Shown one piece after another: positions 348 through 10,892 of a DNA stretch of 64,000 nt. This DNA is from Alphaproteobacteria bacterium (GTDB lineage Bacteria > Pseudomonadota > Alphaproteobacteria > Micropepsales > Micropepsaceae). The notes below the pieces were generated by a model. It had not been told where the DNA came from, did no database searches, and saw nothing but the letters and a program-made list of their open reading frames with translations. Position numbers and translations under genes: made by a program. The DNA lies in NCBI GenBank assembly GCA_947465395.1, contig CANIAL010000002.1:1-64000 (forward strand). Reading direction: 5' to 3'. The number at the start of each line of letters is the position of its first letter. Position 1 is the stretch's first letter.

Positions 348-3131
348 ATGCTTAAGTCCAAATCAAACCTGAAGAATTCATTGTTCCTCGGCGCGTCTGT
401 CTTCTCGGTTAGCCTGATGGCCACCGCTGCTTTTGCGCAGAACAATTCCAAGGCTGACCTCGAAAGCGTGATCGTGACTGGTACGCGCGTGGCTGGCATG
501 ACCGCCGCCGACAGCGCCGCCCCGATTACCGTTCTGGGCGCGAGCGCCCTTACGCAGGCTTCCGGTACAGCCGATCTTCGCCAAGCCCTGGGACAGACAG
601 TTCCCTCTTTCACTGCTGAATCAGTCGGCGGCGACCTTTCCAACTTGGCCCTGACCGCCCAGCTGCGCGGTCTCTCCTCGAACGACACCCTGGTGCTGGT
701 TAACGGCAAGCGTCGCCACGGCGTCGGCCTGCTCAACCTGAATGGCGGCGCAACTGGCGGCGGCGCGGCTGCCGATCTGGCGATGATCCCCACTGCTGCC
801 ATTGAACATGCCGAAGTTTTGTTGGACGGCTCGGCCGCCCAGTACGGCACGGACGCAATTGCCGGCGTTATCAACTTCATCCTCAAGAAGGGCTCTTCGG
901 GCGGCTCATTCTCCGTCAATACCGGCCGGAACTACAGCAAGCAGGGCGCTACGTATGACATGTCCTTGAACATCGGTTTGCCGTTGTTCGACAAGGGCTT
1001 CATCAACGTCACAATGGACAAGAAATTTACCGCTTTCGCATTTACCGGCGGATCTGACGCCCGCCTGATCAGCGGCCCGTCCACTGGTTATGCAGCTGCT
1101 CAAGAAGGAACAATCGCGACGACTGCTGGTGCCTATACTGGAACGATTGCTTGTACAAATGGTGTTTGCATTCCGCTGGCACAGCGCAAGACGGCTGATT
1201 ACTATCCTAAGGCCAACCGCATTGGCGGTAATTCGCAACAGTCCCTGTTCACCACTTTCTATAATGCTGGCTACGACATTAACGACGACATCAGCCTCTA
1301 TTCCTTCGGTAGCTGGGGGCATCGTAACGCCAAGGCCAATGAAAATTACCGCCTGGCCACCCAGGTCATCGCGGCCCCTGGCTCGAACCAGCCCTGCTCT
1401 GCCACCAATCGCCAGGGTTACAACACTGCGGTGACGTCAAACGGCATCACGCCGGCTTGCGCCATCGGCTTGGCAAATAGCGCAACTGGATCGCTTGGCG
1501 TTGCAAACTTGGGTGTCGCGGCTGCTCCGGGCACGAATGCTAGTGGCATGATCCTTTCCACCGGTCAGGCCGGATCGCTTTATACGCCAGGTGAGCTGGT
1601 GATGTATCCCAAGGGCTTTACGCCCCAGGAAGGCATCATGGAAGATGACTATCAATATAACGTCGGTGCGAAATTCAAACTTGGCGGTTGGGATGTGGAT
1701 GCAGGTGTCGGTTATGGTAAGGATATCGACAACATCTATACCTACAATTCCGCCAACCGTTCGCTCTTCATAGACACGCACACCTCCCCTGAGGACTTCT
1801 ATGACGGTGCATTTATCGCTTCCCAGTTGGTGGCGGACGTTAGTGCAACCCATCAGTACAATGTTGGCATGGCTGGACCGCTGAACGTCGCCGTTGGCCT
1901 GGAAGCCCGCGAAGACACTTACCAAATTAAGGCTGGCGACGCGGCCTCGCGGTACAAGGAAGGCCCCCAGTCATTCCCGGGATACTCCTTGTCTGATGCC
2001 AGCAGTCACAGCCGCAAGAACACGGCGGTCTATGTGGACTTCGCAGTTGCCCCAATTGAGGCCCTGCAGCTGGATGTCGCCGGCCGCTACGAACATTACA
2101 GCGACTTTGGCGACGCCACGATCGGCAAGATCACGGCGCGTTATGACTTCAACCCGCAGTGGGCGGTTCGCGGCACCATCTCGACCGGTTTCCGCGCCCC
2201 CACCCTGGCCGAAGAATTCTATTCGGCCACGCAGGTTTCCCCGACCTCTGCCACCGTGCAGCTGCCAGCCAACTCGCCTGCCGCGACGTTGCTTGGTCTG
2301 CCACATGTTGGTCCTGAAATATCCACCCAGTACAGTGCTGGTATTGTTGCGCATCCCTTTGGTGACCTCAGCTTGACTGTCGATGCCTACAGCCTGACCT
2401 TGGGCAACCGCATCGTTCGTTCTGGAACTGTCAACAGTGCGGGCGGTGCCATCAATGTACCGCTGGTCAATACTGCGATTGCCCTTCAAGGCATTTCGCT
2501 GGACCCCACTGCAACCGAGAACGGTGTGTCGGTGTTCCTGAATGGTCTTTCAACCCTGACCCAGGGTGTCGACCTCTCCGTCAACTATCCGGTGGACTTG
2601 GGCAATTATGGTTCGGTGGATTTGACCTTGGCTGGCAACTACAACAACACTTCACTCAGCAAAACTTCGAAACCCCCGGCTGTTATCACGGCTTCAAACC
2701 CGACGGCCACTTTCTTCCCGGATTATACGCTGTATAACTTCGTCCACAGCGCTCCGTCTGAAAAAATTGGCCTGACTGCTAGCTACTCTTACGGAGACTA
2801 TGGCGTGACCCTTCGCGAAACTTATTATGGTCCGCAGCATGGTCAGACAACTCCAAACGGAGGCACTCCCTACTACTCTACCAATCGCCCCGCTGTCGGA
2901 CTGTTTGACGTTGAAGGTCGTTATAACGTGACCGAAAATGTGCAGTTCGCTGTTGGCAGTAACAACTTGTTCAACGTAAAGCCGAAAACAACTGGATATC
3001 TGTCACCGGATACCAACGCCAGTGGCAAGGCTCTGACTTATGGCAACGGCTCCGTTAATAATTCGAATTATAACGGTGCCTACAATCCCAACGGCGGCTT
3101 CTACTACGCCCGCCTGACGCTGAAGTTCTAA
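348..3131 (+). CDS. TonB-dependent outer membrane receptor
   Basis: A 927-residue outer-membrane beta-barrel transporter. Residues 1-30 form a signal peptide ending AFA before QNN. A TonB-box-like segment (SVIVTGTR) follows at about 40-47, then a plug domain to about residue 180 (LVNGKRRHG, DGSAAQYGTDAIAGVINF). The long barrel ends in the aromatic terminus LTLKF expected for BAM-dependent insertion. AAGGGG at 335-340 supports the ATG start. The family takes up siderophores, vitamins, sugars or oligomers using TonB energy. The following PQQ dehydrogenase suggests an organic substrate, but specificity cannot be read from the sequence. It is followed by a strong terminator, so it is probably transcribed separately from the dehydrogenase. 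Confidence 0.93.
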   Translation: MLKSKSNLKNSLFLGASVFSVSLMATAAFAQNNSKADLESVIVTGTRVAGMTAADSAAPITVLGASALTQASGTADLRQALGQTVPSFTAESVGGDLSNLALTAQLRGLSSNDTLVLVNGKRRHGVGLLNLNGGATGGGAAADLAMIPTAAIEHAEVLLDGSAAQYGTDAIAGVINFILKKGSSGGSFSVNTGRNYSKQGATYDMSLNIGLPLFDKGFINVTMDKKFTAFAFTGGSDARLISGPSTGYAAAQEGTIATTAGAYTGTIACTNGVCIPLAQRKTADYYPKANRIGGNSQQSLFTTFYNAGYDINDDISLYSFGSWGHRNAKANENYRLATQVIAAPGSNQPCSATNRQGYNTAVTSNGITPACAIGLANSATGSLGVANLGVAAAPGTNASGMILSTGQAGSLYTPGELVMYPKGFTPQEGIMEDDYQYNVGAKFKLGGWDVDAGVGYGKDIDNIYTYNSANRSLFIDTHTSPEDFYDGAFIASQLVADVSATHQYNVGMAGPLNVAVGLEAREDTYQIKAGDAASRYKEGPQSFPGYSLSDASSHSRKNTAVYVDFAVAPIEALQLDVAGRYEHYSDFGDATIGKITARYDFNPQWAVRGTISTGFRAPTLAEEFYSATQVSPTSATVQLPANSPAATLLGLPHVGPEISTQYSAGIVAHPFGDLSLTVDAYSLTLGNRIVRSGTVNSAGGAINVPLVNTAIALQGISLDPTATENGVSVFLNGLSTLTQGVDLSVNYPVDLGNYGSVDLTLAGNYNNTSLSKTSKPPAVITASNPTATFFPDYTLYNFVHSAPSEKIGLTASYSYGDYGVTLRETYYGPQHGQTTPNGGTPYYSTNRPAVGLFDVEGRYNVTENVQFAVGSNNLFNVKPKTTGYLSPDTNASGKALTYGNGSVNNSNYNGAYNPNGGFYYARLTLKF

Positions 3132-3150
3132 GAAGCGTCTCTCTAAACGG

Positions 3151-3184
3151 AAAACCCGCCCATCGAATGATGGGCGGGTTTTTT
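3151..3184 (+). terminator. Rho-independent terminator after the TonB-dependent receptor
   Basis: An 11-bp perfect stem (AACCCGCCCAT pairing with ATGGGCGGGTT) with a six-base loop is followed by a run of T. It lies 20 bases after the receptor stop codon. Confidence 0.92.
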
Positions 3185-3404
3185 GTTGTCTAATTTTTTG
3201 CTACAGAAAGTCCGCCCCCATAAAAAAACACTTTTTTGATTGCCTGTGAGCTCTCCACCACTCTACTGAATCCCGTGAACGCCACAGCTAGCATCCAGCC
3301 TTGTAGGCGCGCACATGGTTACCTGTTTGGCTATTTTTTTAGACACCCTCCATCAAATTAGTTATTTTGATGCTGTTATTTTTATGAATGGGGACATGAT
3401 TTAA
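3185..3404. other. Intergenic region upstream of the PQQ dehydrogenase
   Basis: An AT-rich stretch of about 220 bases with no supported gene. It contains several A and T tracts and presumably carries the promoter of the dehydrogenase-cytochrome pair. A weak Shine-Dalgarno-like GGGGA precedes the ATG at 3405 by about ten bases. Confidence 0.5.
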
Positions 3405-5489
3405 ATGACCAGCAAATCAAAACTATTCGCGGGCGTGGCTATCTTTGGGTTACTTCTCGCGGGCGGTGCCGCGTTGGCTCAGAGCCAGGGCCAGAATATG
3501 GACTGGCCGCTTTACACCGCAGATGTGATGGGCAGTCGTTTTCGTCCCCTCGATCAGATCAACGCTTCTAACTTTTCCAAGCTCGAAGTTATGTGGCGTT
3601 TCAAGACTGATAACCTTGGTAACCGTCCCGAGTTCAAGCTTGAAGGCACGCCCATTGAGGTGGCCGGGGTGGTCTATGCCACCGCCGGTTCGCGCCGCGC
3701 CGTGATCGCGCTAGACGCGGTGACGGGCGAGCTTCTCTGGGTACATGGTGAAAAGGAAGGCGCGCGCGGTGCTGCTGCTCCTCGTCAATTGTCGGGACGT
3801 GGCCCCGCATATTGGACTGATGGCAAGGATGCGCGCATCGTCTATGTGACGCCGGGCTATCAGCTCATTTGTCTCGACGCCAAGACCGGCCAGCGCGTGG
3901 CTGGCTGGGGCAGCAACAATGGCGCTGTGGATCTAAAAGCTGACGACGACCAGAAAATATTGCCTGACTTTACCACTGGTGAAATCGGCTGGCAGTCTGC
4001 GCCCACGGTGGCAGGCGACATTGTATTGGTTGGCTCCGCCTTCCGCGAGGGCTTCACGCCCACGAGCTTTCGCAACAACAAGGGATCGGCGCGTGCCTTT
4101 GACATGCGCACCGGCAAGAAGTTGTGGCAGTTCCACACCATCCCGCAAAAGGGCGAGCCGGGCTACGAGACCTGGCTAAATGGCTCCGCCGAGTACACCG
4201 GCAATACGGGTGTTTGGACTGAAATCACCGCCGACCCCGAAGCGGGCCTGGCCTATCTTCCCGTCGAACAGCCCACTTCGGACTTCTTCGGCGGCAAGCG
4301 CCCCGGCAATGGCCTGTACGGCACCAGCCTGGTGGCCGTGGACCTCAAGACAGGAAAGCCGAAATGGCATTTTCAGTTCATCCATCACGAGATCTGGGAC
4401 TATGACATGTCCTCGGCGCCTCTGCTGATGGACATCACCGTCAACGGCAAGAACATCAAGGCGGTGGCAGAGCCCAGCAAGATGGGCTTTCTCTATGTCT
4501 TTGACCGCATCACCGGAAAGCCGGTCTGGCCGATCCCAGAAGTAAAAGTTGAGAAGGGCAATGTACCGGGTGAATGGTACGCGCCCACCCAGCCTATCCC
4601 GACCAAGCCGCCAGCTTATGCGCGCACCGCCGTCACAGAGGATATCCTGCTGGATTTTACGCCCGACATGCGCAAGCAGGCCGTTGAGCTGGTGAAAAAT
4701 TACAAGATGGGTCCCATCTACACCCCGCCCGTGGTCAGCAAGGAAGGGCGTCTTGCTACCTTGATGATTGGCGCCGCTAGCGGCGGCACAAACTGGCCGG
4801 GCGGTTCCTTCAACCCGGAGAACCACACCGTCTATACCTATGCCTGCAATTCCTGCCTGTCGGCGACGGGCCTGATGCCGCCGCCTCCGGGATTATCTGA
4901 CCTTCCTTATGTCGTGGGCCAGGTGGGCCAGCGCATTACCATGGTCAACGCCGCCGGTACGGATTCCAGCGCCGATGCGCCGCCGCCGGTGCGTCGTGGG
5001 GCCACGCCGGCACCCGCTGCCGCCGCGGCCGAGGGCGGAAACCGCCGCCGCCTAGCGGTCAATGGTTTGCTGTTGGTGAAGCCGCCATACAGCACCATCA
5101 GCGCCATCAATTTGGATCGCGGCGAAATTGTCTGGCAGGTGCCGCATGGCGATACCCCCGATGCGGTACGCAACAACCCCGCGCTCAAGGGCATCAATGT
5201 GCCCCGCACGGGCCAGACTGGCTTCAACATCGGCACGCTGGTGACAAAGTCTCTGGTGATCGCGGGTGACGCACAGGTTACCACCACTCCGGATCATCCG
5301 CGCGGTGCGCCGCTTCGCGCCTATGACCAGAAGACCGGCAAGGAAGTTGGCAATGTCCTGATGCCCGCCGGACAGTCCGGCTCGCCCATGACCTATATGG
5401 TCAATGGTAAGCAGTACATCATAGTCGCCGTCAGCGGGGGCGACTATTCGGGCGAGTACATCTGCTACGCACTTCCGGATAATGGCTAG
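3405..5489 (+). CDS. PQQ-dependent (quinoprotein) dehydrogenase
   Basis: A 694-residue periplasmic quinoprotein of the eight-bladed PQQ beta-propeller family, which oxidises alcohols, sugars or polyols and passes electrons to a cytochrome or quinone. Signal peptide residues 1-25 end ALA before QSQ. The opening (DWPLYTADVMGSRFRPLDQI) is the family's first blade, and repeated blade motifs such as ALDAVTGELLW, AFDMRTGKKLWQFH and AINLDRGEIVWQVP are visible. A proline/alanine-rich insert lies near residues 522-545. The protein has no internal haem motif and no adjacent Cys-Cys pair of the methanol dehydrogenase type, so its electron acceptor is probably the cytochrome encoded 22 bases downstream. 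No PQQ biosynthesis genes are in the window. The substrate is unknown. Confidence 0.9.
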   Translation: MTSKSKLFAGVAIFGLLLAGGAALAQSQGQNMDWPLYTADVMGSRFRPLDQINASNFSKLEVMWRFKTDNLGNRPEFKLEGTPIEVAGVVYATAGSRRAVIALDAVTGELLWVHGEKEGARGAAAPRQLSGRGPAYWTDGKDARIVYVTPGYQLICLDAKTGQRVAGWGSNNGAVDLKADDDQKILPDFTTGEIGWQSAPTVAGDIVLVGSAFREGFTPTSFRNNKGSARAFDMRTGKKLWQFHTIPQKGEPGYETWLNGSAEYTGNTGVWTEITADPEAGLAYLPVEQPTSDFFGGKRPGNGLYGTSLVAVDLKTGKPKWHFQFIHHEIWDYDMSSAPLLMDITVNGKNIKAVAEPSKMGFLYVFDRITGKPVWPIPEVKVEKGNVPGEWYAPTQPIPTKPPAYARTAVTEDILLDFTPDMRKQAVELVKNYKMGPIYTPPVVSKEGRLATLMIGAASGGTNWPGGSFNPENHTVYTYACNSCLSATGLMPPPPGLSDLPYVVGQVGQRITMVNAAGTDSSADAPPPVRRGATPAPAAAAAEGGNRRRLAVNGLLLVKPPYSTISAINLDRGEIVWQVPHGDTPDAVRNNPALKGINVPRTGQTGFNIGTLVTKSLVIAGDAQVTTTPDHPRGAPLRAYDQKTGKEVGNVLMPAGQSGSPMTYMVNGKQYIIVAVSGGDYSGEYICYALPDNG

Positions 5490-5511
5490 AACACAAACTG
5501 GAACATAAAAC

Positions 5512-7092
5512 ATGAAGCGCAAGAATATCACGGTCTGGATAGGTGCACTCGCTCTTTGCACGGCGGCGGGCGGCGCGGTGGTTGCGCAGAATGCCGCCAC
5601 GGTCAACGACGGCATCTATACCATCGCTCAGGCCGATCGCGGTCATAACTCCTTTAACCAAAACTGCGCGGCATGCCATGGCGCCAACATGGCGGGCACT
5701 GGCGAGGCGCCCGGGCTTGTGGGCGGCGAATTTCTTTCCAATTGGACCGGGCTTTCCGTGGGCCAACTATTCGACCGTATCCGTACCACCATGCCGCAGG
5801 ATACGCCGGGCAAACTCGGCCGCGAAACGTATGCAGAAATTCTGGCCTATATCCTGAAGGAAAATGACTATCCGGTTGGACAGAAAGACCTGGATACCCG
5901 CAGCGAATTCCTCAAAGCCATCAAGATGGATGCGCCGCCGGAAAAAAACGCCCGCGTCATGCCCGCCATCCGCCTGACACCGGTGGTGATGCAGATGGGG
6001 CCTGCTGCGTCACCGGCGGCTGCGCCGGCCGCCGCCCCGCGCCCCGAGCGTTATCCGCCCGCCGATCTGGCGGCTCTGGCCGCGGGTGAAAAAGCCTCGG
6101 GAATATTGTCGGCCTCCGCCAATGATCCACGCAACGCGCCGGGCACCCAGCCCAACTCCTATGCGATGGACGAGCATTTCTTCAAGTTGCCCGAAGGGCG
6201 CAGCTTCGGTTCTACCTCCAGCGTGGGGGTGGACTCAAAGGGTCACATCTGGGTGGCCGAACGTTGCGGCGCCAACAATTGCGCTGGCAGCCCGCTGAAC
6301 CCAGTGGTCGAGTTCGACGCCAAGGGCAATTACATCAAGTCTTTCGGCGCGGGCATGTTTCTGTTCCCGCATGACCTGTTCATAGACAAGAATGATCACC
6401 TCTGGATTGCCGACGGTCACGTGGATGCCGCCGCGAAAAAGGGCAATGTGGTCATGGAATTCGACACCAGCGGCAAGCTGCTGATGACCCTGGGTACGCC
6501 GGGCGCCACGGGCGTGGACGCCAAGACTTTCGACCAGCCCAATGCGGTGCTGGTGACGCCCACGGGCACCATCTTCGTGTCGGACGGGCATGATGCGGGC
6601 CCCGCCCATCCGGCGCGCGTTTCCAAGTTCGACGCCAAGGGCAAGTTCATCAAGTCCTGGGGCGCACGCGGGCTTGGCGCGGACCAGATGGAAGTGCCCC
6701 ATGCCCTGGCCATGGACAGCAAGGGCGATCTTTATGTGGGCGACCGCTGGAACAACCGCGTGGTCAAGACCGACCAGGACGGCAAGCTGCTGGAGATATT
6801 CACCCAGTTCGGCCGCCCCAGCGGCATCTTCATCGACAAGAACGACATCCTGTACTCCACCGATTCTGAATCACGTTCGCCGGTTGGCTATGGCTACAAT
6901 CCCGGCTGGAAGCGCGGCATCCATGTCGGCAGCGTCCGGGACGGCATCGTCACAGCCTTTATTCCCGACACCGATCCCAACCCCGACGCCAGCGCCACCA
7001 GCGGCGGCGAGGGCATCTGGGTTGACCCCAATGGCGTGATTTACAGCGGACAGGTTGGCCAGAAGAATGTGGTCCGCTATGTCAAGCGCTAG
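5512..7092 (+). CDS. c-type cytochrome fused to an NHL beta-propeller
   Basis: A 526-residue secreted two-domain protein. Residues 1-26 form a signal peptide (VVAQ). A class I cytochrome c domain follows with haem motif CAACH at 52-56 and a likely distal methionine in the TTMPQ segment. An alanine/proline linker covers about 164-185. From about residue 205 to the end is an NHL/six-bladed propeller with repeated blades (VGVDSKGHIWVAE, LFIDKNDHLWIADG, ALAMDSKGDLYVGDRWNNRVV), resembling the peptidyl-hydroxyglycine amidating-lyase-like propellers. It starts 22 bases after the PQQ dehydrogenase and is very likely co-transcribed. I infer that the haem domain accepts electrons from that enzyme. Whether the propeller is catalytic (lactonase- or lyase-like) or a docking domain is unknown. 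Confidence 0.88.
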   Translation: MKRKNITVWIGALALCTAAGGAVVAQNAATVNDGIYTIAQADRGHNSFNQNCAACHGANMAGTGEAPGLVGGEFLSNWTGLSVGQLFDRIRTTMPQDTPGKLGRETYAEILAYILKENDYPVGQKDLDTRSEFLKAIKMDAPPEKNARVMPAIRLTPVVMQMGPAASPAAAPAAAPRPERYPPADLAALAAGEKASGILSASANDPRNAPGTQPNSYAMDEHFFKLPEGRSFGSTSSVGVDSKGHIWVAERCGANNCAGSPLNPVVEFDAKGNYIKSFGAGMFLFPHDLFIDKNDHLWIADGHVDAAAKKGNVVMEFDTSGKLLMTLGTPGATGVDAKTFDQPNAVLVTPTGTIFVSDGHDAGPAHPARVSKFDAKGKFIKSWGARGLGADQMEVPHALAMDSKGDLYVGDRWNNRVVKTDQDGKLLEIFTQFGRPSGIFIDKNDILYSTDSESRSPVGYGYNPGWKRGIHVGSVRDGIVTAFIPDTDPNPDASATSGGEGIWVDPNGVIYSGQVGQKNVVRYVKR

Positions 7093-7229
7093 ACCCGTTC
7101 AATAACGGCGTAATAACTCCCTCCGGACCCGTTGCGGCCGGCCCGAATCTCACGATACGATGACAAGGCTTAGGCGCCGCCGGGGTCTGGCGTCATTGTC
7201 TTGTCAGTGGGCATCTTGTCGGGGTTGGC

Positions 7230-7433
7230 ATGGCCGTTACTGCCGCACGCAAATATCCGCACCCGGTCTATCTGTGGATCGCGGTGCCGTTCATTGCCAT
7301 GCTGTGGGTGCCGTTCTTTAATCGCGTCACGCCGGAACTTGCAGGGATACCCTTCTTCTACTGGTACCAGATGCTCTGGACCGTTCTGGGTGCGCTCTGT
7401 GTCGTGCCTGTCTACCGCTATCGCTATCGCTAG
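7230..7433 (+). CDS. DUF3311-family small membrane protein
   Basis: A 67-residue protein with two hydrophobic segments, one around residues 13-28 and one around 42-60, separated by the family-like stretch PFFNRVTPELAGIPFFYWYQ and ending in a basic tail. DUF3311 proteins are usually encoded just before a sodium:solute symporter and are thought to be accessory subunits. Here the next gene, 58 bases on, is an OFA-type MFS carrier, which implies a similar partnership. An in-frame start at 7201 is possible in another frame, but the ATG at 7230 gives the conserved protein. Confidence 0.75.
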   Translation: MAVTAARKYPHPVYLWIAVPFIAMLWVPFFNRVTPELAGIPFFYWYQMLWTVLGALCVVPVYRYRYR

Positions 7434-7491
7434 CCGTAATCCATGACCGCTTTGGCCTTGTGGCCTGCAACGAAACATCTGGGGGGTTTTC

Positions 7492-8781
7492 ATGAGTAGT
7501 TCTGCCGCCGCCGCGCCGCTGCGCAACCGCTGGCTTATCGCCGTCTTCGCGCTTCTGGTGCAGGGATGCCTCGGTTCGGTCTATGCCTGGAGCGTCTTCG
7601 TCAATCCCCTGATCGCCAACAATCCAGACTGGACGCGCCTTCAGGCGAGCTTGGCCTTCACCATTGCCATGTCGTGTCTTGGCATCGGCACTGTCATCGG
7701 CGGCGCCTTACAGGACCGGTTCGGCCCGCGTGTGGTCACCACCTTCGCCGCCGTGATTTATTGCCTGGGTTTTCTGATTGCCGCCTGGTCCGCTTCGCAT
7801 CATTACCTCTGGGGCCTTTATATCGGCTATGGCTTGTTCAGTGGCCTTGGCATGGGCATTGGCTATATCTGCCCGGTGGCCATGATCACCAAATGGTTCC
7901 CGGACAAGCGTGGCCTGATGACCGGCGTCAATGTGATGGGCTTCGGCGTCGCGGCCCTGATCATGGGTCCCATCGCCGCCCGCCTGATCGTGTCGCAGGG
8001 TGTGCCCACAACGCTGGTGATCTTCGGCCTGATTTATGGCGCCATCATTCTCGTCTCGGCGCAGTTTTTCGCGAACCCGGTGCAGAACTGGGTGCCCGAA
8101 GGCTGGACGGCCACGTCAAAGGTCTCCAAGAACGCCTCGCTGGTGCATTTCGAACCCAAGCAGGCGCTTTCTACCCGCCGTTTCTGGTTGCTCTGGGCCA
8201 TGCTGTCGCTGAATACGTCCGCCGGCATCATGATCGTCAGCCAGGCGTCCCCGCTGTCGCAGACCCAGTTGGGCATTACAGCGGTGCAGGCGGCCTCCAT
8301 CGTGGGTATCATCAGCATCTTCAATGGCGGCGGGCGCATCTTCTGGGCCTGGATTTCTGACTTGATCGGCCGCGGCCAGGCCTATTTCCTGATCTTCCTG
8401 ATACAGATACCGCTGTTCTTCCTTCTGCCCCAGATCCACGAAGTTGTCATGTTCACCGTGGTGGTTTGCATCATCCAGCTTTGCTATGGCGGCGGTTTTG
8501 GCGTGATGCCGTCCTTCACTGCGGACTTTTTCGGTTCGAAATATGTGGGCAGCATCTATGGCTGGATCCTGATGGGCTGGGGCCTTGCCGCCGTCCCGGC
8601 GCCGCTGCTGATGGCGTATGTGTTCCAGAAGTACGGCTCCTTTGACGGCGCCATCCTCGCTCTGGGTGTGGTCCTAATCATTTCTCTTATCTTCCCGCTT
8701 CTGGCCATGCGCGAAGTAAAGCTGATGTTTGCGCGGGGCGAAACCAAGTCTGCCACCGGGCCGGTCATCCCGCGCGGCTGA
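7492..8781 (+). CDS. OFA-family MFS transporter (oxalate/formate antiporter type)
   Basis: A 429-residue, 12-helix major facilitator. The first helix carries GCLGSVYAWSVFVNPL and the region after helix 4 carries GIGYICPVAMITKWFPDKRGLMTG, both typical of the oxalate:formate antiporter (OFA) family. OFA members move monocarboxylates and dicarboxylates such as oxalate, formate, lactate and pyruvate. GGGGGG lies shortly before the ATG at 7492. It follows the DUF3311 gene and ends at a terminator shared with ald. I infer that it imports or exchanges an acid produced or used by the upstream oxidation system; the actual substrate is not determinable here. Confidence 0.88.
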   Translation: MSSSAAAAPLRNRWLIAVFALLVQGCLGSVYAWSVFVNPLIANNPDWTRLQASLAFTIAMSCLGIGTVIGGALQDRFGPRVVTTFAAVIYCLGFLIAAWSASHHYLWGLYIGYGLFSGLGMGIGYICPVAMITKWFPDKRGLMTGVNVMGFGVAALIMGPIAARLIVSQGVPTTLVIFGLIYGAIILVSAQFFANPVQNWVPEGWTATSKVSKNASLVHFEPKQALSTRRFWLLWAMLSLNTSAGIMIVSQASPLSQTQLGITAVQAASIVGIISIFNGGGRIFWAWISDLIGRGQAYFLIFLIQIPLFFLLPQIHEVVMFTVVVCIIQLCYGGGFGVMPSFTADFFGSKYVGSIYGWILMGWGLAAVPAPLLMAYVFQKYGSFDGAILALGVVLIISLIFPLLAMREVKLMFARGETKSATGPVIPRG

Positions 8782-8804: not shown

Positions 8805-8834
8805 GGGCGGCAGGGAAACCTGCCGCCCTTTTTC
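8805..8834. terminator. Bidirectional terminator between the OFA transporter and ald
   Basis: A perfect 10-bp stem (GGGCGGCAGG pairing with CCTGCCGCCC) with a GAAA tetraloop is followed by TTTTT on the plus strand. It sits between convergent genes, two bases before the ald stop codon, and may serve both. Confidence 0.9.
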
Positions 8835-9912: not shown

Positions 9913-9998
9913 GGTGATCTCCTCAAGCTGGCGCTTGTTGCAAAACCCAGTATAAGCATCTTGTGCGGGGGCGCGAATTCTTCAAACGCGGGACTGCC

Positions 9999-10892
9999 AT
10001 GTTGATGCCCCTTGTGGCCCTGGTCATGGCGCTTGCTGCGCCAAACATTACGGCCACGAACATACAAGAACGCCAATTCGTGGAATGCACAGGCTGCCCC
10101 CAGATGGTGGCGGTGCCGGCTGGCCGCTTCCTGATGGGCAGTCCCAAGACCGAAGCCGGGCGCTTTGATGCCGAAGGCCCGCAGCACGTGGTCAGCATCA
10201 GGGCTTTCGCGCTGGCGCAGACGCCGGTCACCAGCGCGCAGTTTTTGGATTTCCTGCAGGAGACCAATTACCAGCCCAAGCCCTGCAATCCGCTGCTGGG
10301 CCTGACATGGCATGCGCCGGGCCGGGGTCTGGCCTATCCGCCGTCGCAGAACGAGCCGCCGCTGTGGCCCGCCGTGTGCCTCGATCACAAGGATGCGCTT
10401 GCCTACATCGCCTGGCTGAACAGACGCGTGAAAGCGGCGCGCCCGGCGCTGGCGCAGCGCGTGGGACCTTATCGCCTGCCGTCCGAGGCGGAATGGGAAT
10501 ATGCCGCCCGCGCGGGCACGAAAACCGCGCGCTGGTGGGGCGACGATATCGGCAGCGCCAACGCCAACTGCAATGGCTGCGGCAGCGTCTGGGACAATCG
10601 CGTGCTGGCCCCGGTCAATGCCTTTGCGGAAAATCCCTTTGGCCTTCAGGGCATGCTGGGCAACAGCTGGGAATGGACGCAGGATTGCTGGCACGATGAT
10701 TATGTGGGTGCGCCGGTGGATGGCTCCCCCTGGCCCGCACAGGATTGCGCGCGGCACGTGATCCGCGGCGGCTCCTGGGATAACGTGCCCATCTTCATCC
10801 GGTCCGCCGCACGCAGTGCTGCCAGCGCGGACGGTGGCGAATACGATTATTCCAGTTTAACGGGATTTCGCATCGCCCGAGATTTGCCCTGA
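9999..10892 (+). CDS. SUMF1/FGE-fold secreted protein lacking the catalytic cysteines
   Basis: A 297-residue protein of the formylglycine-generating-enzyme (SUMF1) fold, starting at ATG 9999, which yields an N-terminal signal-like helix. An in-frame GTG at 9963 would add 12 residues. Family blocks visible are VAVPAGRFLMGS, YRLPSEAEWEYAARAG, GLQGMLGNSWEWTQD and the C-terminal RGGSWDN. True FGEs place a Cys pair after the RGGSW block for copper-dependent oxidation of sulfatase cysteines; here that region reads NVPIFIRSAARSA with no Cys. It is therefore unlikely to be a sulfatase-activating enzyme. No sulfatase is nearby. The function is unknown. Confidence 0.85.
   Translation: MLMPLVALVMALAAPNITATNIQERQFVECTGCPQMVAVPAGRFLMGSPKTEAGRFDAEGPQHVVSIRAFALAQTPVTSAQFLDFLQETNYQPKPCNPLLGLTWHAPGRGLAYPPSQNEPPLWPAVCLDHKDALAYIAWLNRRVKAARPALAQRVGPYRLPSEAEWEYAARAGTKTARWWGDDIGSANANCNGCGSVWDNRVLAPVNAFAENPFGLQGMLGNSWEWTQDCWHDDYVGAPVDGSPWPAQDCARHVIRGGSWDNVPIFIRSAARSAASADGGEYDYSSLTGFRIARDLP

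Follow-up and report, generated by a model that had tools for sequence, protein, structure and literature searches.

The four genes at positions 3405 to 8781 of the window (the whole 64,000-nucleotide stretch of DNA analysed here, G000:C2:1-64000, from a 1.77-Mb genome assembly that is 93.5% complete) appear to form a periplasmic oxidation and uptake unit that would deliver a small monocarboxylate to the cell and would use PQQ of external origin, a reading to which we give a probability of roughly one half. The unit is real and partly conserved, and it represents a fresh variation on familiar systems. A preliminary description had listed five genes on one strand, and open reading frames and Pfam matches confirmed all of them as co-directional open frames on the forward strand: a TonB-dependent receptor (348 to 3131; PF00593, 2.5e-31), a Gcd-like PQQ-type dehydrogenase (3405 to 5489; PF01011, 4.2e-163), a mono-heme cytochrome c (about residues 36 to 119) fused to a PAL-like six-bladed propeller (about residues 212 to 526; gene at 5512 to 7092), a DUF3311 small membrane protein (7230 to 7433; PF11755, 5.5e-18) and an OFA/MFS carrier (7492 to 8781; MFS_1, 4.6e-42). 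However, the proposal that all five act as one unit did not hold, because an intrinsic-terminator-like hairpin of 19 pairs with a T tail (3146 to 3187, forward strand) cuts off the receptor, which is a neighbor with its own transcript, and because relatives of this receptor adjoin L-amino-acid oxidase genes. A unit of the last four genes is therefore plausible. The gaps within it are 22 nt between the dehydrogenase and the fusion, 137 nt between the fusion and the DUF3311 gene and 58 nt between the latter and the carrier, and a terminator-like hairpin of 10 pairs (8805 to 8828, assigned to neither strand) follows the carrier and is common to a convergent alanine dehydrogenase gene. The 137-nt gap, together with a weak terminator-like hairpin at 7173 to 7194, could split off the two carrier genes. 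The preliminary description overlooked that the propeller resembles PAL and that PQQ synthesis genes were not found.

The dehydrogenase matches the PQQ eight-bladed propeller model of Pfam with 544.7 bits (cut-off 26.7) and shares 29% identity with Escherichia coli Gcd over 697 aligned columns. Its translation begins with a signal-like stretch in place of the membrane-anchor domain of Gcd, and it falls under the NCBIfam cut-offs of all three best-matching quinoprotein models; for PQQ_membr_DH (TIGR03074) it reaches 336.9 bits, below the cut-off of 832.65, with a match that starts at profile position 149 and misses the anchor domain. We aligned 47 relatives with Gcd and defined as the near group the 31 sequences that are 45% or more identical to the window enzyme. 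In the tree of these 48 rows the 31 form one group (support 94/90), which a Gemmatimonadaceae sequence joins (100/100) on a long branch of the kind that the tree tool warns about. Judged by its sequence, the dehydrogenase is a member of a divergent clade of Gcd-like quinoproteins, which is present in 14 of 37 same-genus genomes. Asp466, Lys493 and Trp404 (E. coli numbering), which we take to be the catalytic residues of Gcd, are kept in 28, 31 and 31 of the 31 near-group sequences, respectively, and R266 in 23; the substitutions are D466N in three sequences and R266H/L in eight. All four residues are found in 16/16 distant sequences, 15 of which also keep N607 and 15 D730. Asn607 and Asp730 presumably have functional roles in Gcd as well; in the near group the D730 column is Gly in 31/31, with an insertion adjoining and gap placement uncertain, and the poorly aligned N607 column is never Asn. 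The window enzyme reads Y and G at the aligned N607 and D730 columns, where the same insertion and uncertain gap placement apply, and it retains R266, Glu at 354, W404, T424, D466, K493 and the NW motif. With the N607 and D730 positions changed across the clade, PQQ binding is open to some doubt. A second PQQ gene of the genome (G000:C4:119667-121736, 88 to 89% identical) lacks a cytochrome or carrier gene and is divergent from a gene for a secreted L-amino-acid oxidase.

If the dehydrogenase uses PQQ, the cofactor must be external, because no synthesis genes (PqqC, PqqE) were found. Our survey covered 61 genomes, 40 of them with a PQQ-protein match and 37 of the same genus, the window's included. 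PqqC was above cut-off in three of the 61 (G003, G051, G058) and PqqE in four (the same three and G005), and a profile search for these two proteins gave no match above cut-off in any of the 14 genomes that carry the clade. These are the window genome and 13 others of the genus, in each of which the quinoprotein matches number 10 to 29 (matches rather than gene counts, as some genes match twice), and all 31 near-group sequences come from them. Only 2 of the 37 same-genus genomes have PqqE, showing that the shortage is genus-wide and not peculiar to quinoprotein-rich genomes. The 13 assemblies are 82 to 100% complete, and a gap common to 14 incomplete assemblies is unlikely to be chance. As for uptake, the PqqU signature consists of three residues (Y/F/W99, R304 and R365 in the available text of PMC12124388). 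Neither the window receptor nor any of 13 PqqU hits tested has all three; each hit comes from a different genome, and 8 of these genomes, G000:C3 included, belong to the 14 that carry the clade. Since the PqqU alignments are remote, a divergent PQQ importer may still exist. The window receptor itself was rejected as PqqU: the E. coli PqqU match covers 75 residues only (E 0.01), and the signature columns read L, E and I in this weak alignment. The 2025 survey that defined the signature, in its accessible part, describes PqqU as largely absent from Alphaproteobacteria, with one alphaproteobacterium only carrying it, and reads the class as mainly PQQ producers (PMC12124388), while the accessible part of another study describes heterotrophic marine Thaumarchaeota with many quinoproteins but an encoded PQQ synthase (PMC7300363).

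The same observations might be explained by an "empty" or re-purposed quinoprotein, which keeps the fold with PQQ replaced by another redox or carbohydrate-like ligand, an idea that echoes the NCBI family name "acido-empty-quinoprotein" (Acidobacteria). The lack of PqqC and PqqE in the 14 clade genomes, the absence of the PqqU signature from the hits tested, the changes at N607, D730, D466 and R266 described above and the long branch that separates the clade are all in line with it. However, the window enzyme retains the set of residues listed above, including an acid at 354, its score against the group A model of that family (TIGR04528, 225.7 bits) is far below the cut-off of 650, and E. coli uses PQQ enzymes with a genome that has no PQQ synthesis genes (PMC12124388, as far as its accessible text goes), so we consider an empty propeller unlikely.

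The fusion gene encodes a Cytochrome_CBB3 match (6.1e-09) and an NHL match (PF01436, 1.2e-14) in a single frame, and its N-terminal part, with the heme motif CAACH in the translation, is a mono-heme cytochrome c domain. In the predicted structure the pLDDT of the propeller is mostly above 85, and the cytochrome part is poorly predicted. By comparing the propeller with solved structures, we found PAL (3fvz) on top in both Foldseek (2.4e-19) and VIA-align (Z 36.4, rmsd 2.4, 286 aligned), with an NHL scaffold next in the latter (Z 33.9); in the model, the "NHL" domain is nearest to the lyase PAL and adopts the PAL propeller fold. The NHL family is strikingly conserved, and His287, His360 and His397 are invariant across 15 of its sequences. 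We take His585, His690 and His786 to be the Zn ligands of PAL and Tyr654 to be its catalytic residue. In the PAL alignment, with residue numbers counted by hand, His585 corresponds to His287, His690 to His397 by eye, and His786 has no placed counterpart; the catalytic Tyr654 is not kept, its place being taken by His360, which is invariant in alignment A1. Because His585 is matched by His287 but Tyr654 by His360, the modeled propeller likely has an enzyme-like site with altered chemistry. It also differs from PAL in having no monooxygenase partner and in its fusion to cytochrome c. Public records name distant relatives "peptidyl-alpha-hydroxyglycine alpha-amidating lyase family protein", an annotation name alone, and PADLOC gave no match for the fusion.

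Among the neighbors of NHL genes in other phyla no common partner was found, and the relatives from Acidobacteria and Gammaproteobacteria (L015 to L019, L021 to L025, L028) have no PQQ gene within the stretch examined. Sigma-54 regulators adjoin the NHL gene in Gammaproteobacteria and an FMN_dh gene adjoins it in L016, while in a Gemmatimonadaceae bin (L020, 6151 to 10768) the genes for a DAO-family flavin oxidoreductase, a PAL-like NHL protein and a DUF885 protein overlap by a few bases and may be an operon pointing to the role of the NHL protein. In Mesorhizobium sp. 131-2-5 (L219, 5989 to 6900), a PAL-like gene adjoins an ectoine uptake and breakdown cluster.

The OFA carrier scores 412.6 bits against the SfMCT-type L-lactate carrier model (NF049980), whose cut-off is 320, and the solved structures nearest to it are those of an L-lactate transporter and of the oxalate:formate antiporter. 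By family, it is a putative carrier of the L-lactate/monocarboxylate kind. Together with the MctP gene that takes the carrier slot in locus L014, this supports the uptake of an acid anticipated by the preliminary description. Among 142 genomes of the class, 5 gave DUF3311 matches (8 in all, 6 over cut-off); in 7 of the 8 matches the adjoining gene encodes an SSS symporter, either MctP-like (51 to 66%) or a distant SSF protein (25 to 29%), and the window is the sole MFS case of the 8. Locus L013 provides a second DUF3311-MFS case, again above the NF049980 cut-off, and the DUF3311 partner in L014 is above the cut-off of NF046076 for MctP, an unrelated monocarboxylate permease. That a DUF3311 gene precedes the carrier gene is shared with rhizobial operons such as NGR_RS10970-mctP of Sinorhizobium fredii, whose partner is an SSS symporter rather than an MFS carrier; there, according to the accessible text of PMC9100948, both genes belong to one operon with the DUF3311 gene first, and growth on pyruvate barely changed when that gene was deleted.

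The full quartet was found in two genomes only, that of the window and G014 (Kiruna2_bin-2274), where L013 holds the end of a PQQ gene (last 51 residues), the fusion, the DUF3311 gene and the OFA gene. In G016, L096 and L097 show a TonB receptor of another type, a DHDPS-like gene, a PQQ gene and the fusion; in L098 (G009) the PQQ gene is followed by a separate cytochrome gene, and in L099 (G014) by a separate NHL gene and a convergent L-amino-acid oxidase gene. Counting loci with readable downstream DNA whose PQQ gene is 67% or more identical (or, where just the last 51 residues are present, 96%), a cytochrome, NHL or fusion gene comes next on the PQQ strand in six of seven (the window, L013, L096, L097, L098 and L099), in four of them in fused form (the window, L013, L096 and L097). 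The exception is L004, the genome's own paralogue (88%); L095 was left out because it stops at a contig end. The recurrence of the PQQ-fusion order in L013, L096 and L097 supports the earlier idea that a cytochrome accepts the electrons of a periplasmic oxidation. Of the five-gene order sought elsewhere, the quartet was recovered in L013 and, separately, a TonB receptor of another type ahead of the PQQ-fusion pair in L096 and L097, but the five genes as a unit were not. Among more distant near-group PQQ genes (L100 to L112), a cytochrome gene comes after that of L100 and the first one of L101, and an NHL gene after that of L110 and the first one of L112; in L104 both lie on the other strand, and the remaining PQQ genes have neither or meet a contig end. 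PQQ paralogues of 45 to 61% mostly lack a cytochrome or NHL gene directly downstream. In a cultured organism, Sphingobium indicum B90A, plasmid pSRL1 carries a PQQ gene (53%) and, after it, a cytochrome c gene whose product is 44% like the window's cytochrome. A literature search, with subscription papers largely outside its scope, found no published account of this gene set.

Joining contigs C20 and C7 of G014 into one locus was rejected: they have no exact overlap and their PQQ ends are 84.6% identical in nucleotides, so they hold two different PQQ genes. On G014:C20, G016:C15 and G016:C1, the gene that separates a TonB receptor gene from a PQQ gene encodes a DHDPS-family protein with a twin-arginine-like signal, possibly an exported aldolase; this gene type, which precedes the PQQ gene in L095 to L097, was rejected as a module part for the window, as the only match in G000 is 32% and dapA-like. 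An FGE-sulfatase-family protein is encoded at 9963 to 10892 of the window, with a 64 to 68% relative near the L013 quartet and a 61% relative near two NHL genes (L026).

These loci bear on the possibility that two unrelated neighbors are involved, a PQQ-cytochrome-lyase pair and a chance pair for lactate or pyruvate transport. The 137-nt gap with its weak hairpin and the lack of DUF3311 and carrier genes at most PQQ loci of the clade would fit such a chance arrangement, but the order is the same in L013, where the DUF3311 and OFA genes overlap by 4 nt, and L014, with NHL, DUF3311 and MctP genes in order, fills the same slot with an unrelated carrier for the same substrate class; we therefore doubt this explanation. 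A five-gene pathway, in which the adjacent, co-directional window receptor imports the substrate of the dehydrogenase, is highly improbable: other-type TonB receptors do lie ahead of PQQ genes in L095 to L097, and L-amino-acid oxidase genes link the two indirectly, adjoining two relatives of the receptor (L209, L216) and two PQQ genes (L004, where the oxidase matches 2jae at 4.2e-87, and L099), but the 19-pair terminator separates receptor and dehydrogenase, and relatives of the receptor above 40% were, by coordinates, never beside a PQQ gene among the matches listed.

The closest relatives of the receptor adjoin L-amino-acid oxidase genes and not the quartet. Amidohydrolase genes adjoin the G016 loci, and these neighbors, with the alanine dehydrogenase gene convergent on the unit, hint weakly at nitrogen-bearing substrates or at 2-oxo acids. 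In L209 (G000:C8:37001-56000, 599 to 5665), a receptor 75% like the window's, an L-amino-acid oxidase and a small cytochrome c are encoded on one strand, perhaps as a TonB receptor-oxidase-cytochrome operon. A run of about ten G at 155 to 175, upstream of the window receptor gene, may reflect phase variation or a trait of the assembly.

In the four-gene oxidation and uptake unit that we prefer, the Gcd-like quinoprotein would work in the periplasm on a small compound with hydroxyl or amino groups, oxidizing it and, as adjacency and fusion suggest, handing the electrons to heme c in the protein encoded next. The PAL-like propeller might then act on the oxidized intermediate, for instance as a lyase releasing a 2-oxo acid, and the carrier, judged by its family, would move the small acid product inward with the assistance of DUF3311. 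PQQ could enter by porin diffusion or through another TonB receptor, as no PqqU was recognized. The enzyme resembles Gcd in its catalytic Asp and Lys and in coming from a genome in which no PQQ synthesis genes were found; in E. coli, however, Gcd is membrane-bound and donates to ubiquinone, whereas the acceptor here is probably the fused cytochrome c, and PQQ there is scavenged by PqqU. Methanol/alcohol dehydrogenase and cytochrome c pairs and the pSRL1 pair share the gene order, but the window cytochrome is fused to a propeller. We offer more tentatively a broader scenario, which is possible but open to considerable doubt: the lineage may have radiated a quinoprotein clade without native PQQ synthesis or PqqU, relying on a second uptake receptor or a different cofactor, and the window member may pass electrons to a cytochrome c-lyase fusion of a new kind, which would act as an oxidase-lyase, trimming a larger substrate, perhaps one that bears nitrogen, and supplying the released 2-oxo acid to a DUF3311-MFS carrier.

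The exchange of OFA and MctP carriers beside DUF3311 suggests that this small protein serves monocarboxylate carriers of two unrelated folds, and the cytochrome-PAL fusion offers a concrete candidate role for bacterial PAL-like propellers. The cofactor puzzle is the most interesting aspect of the unit: because 13 genomes are rich in quinoproteins and none has PqqC or PqqE above cut-off, the genus lends itself to testing whether PQQ can be scavenged along a different path or whether quinoproteins can work with some other cofactor.
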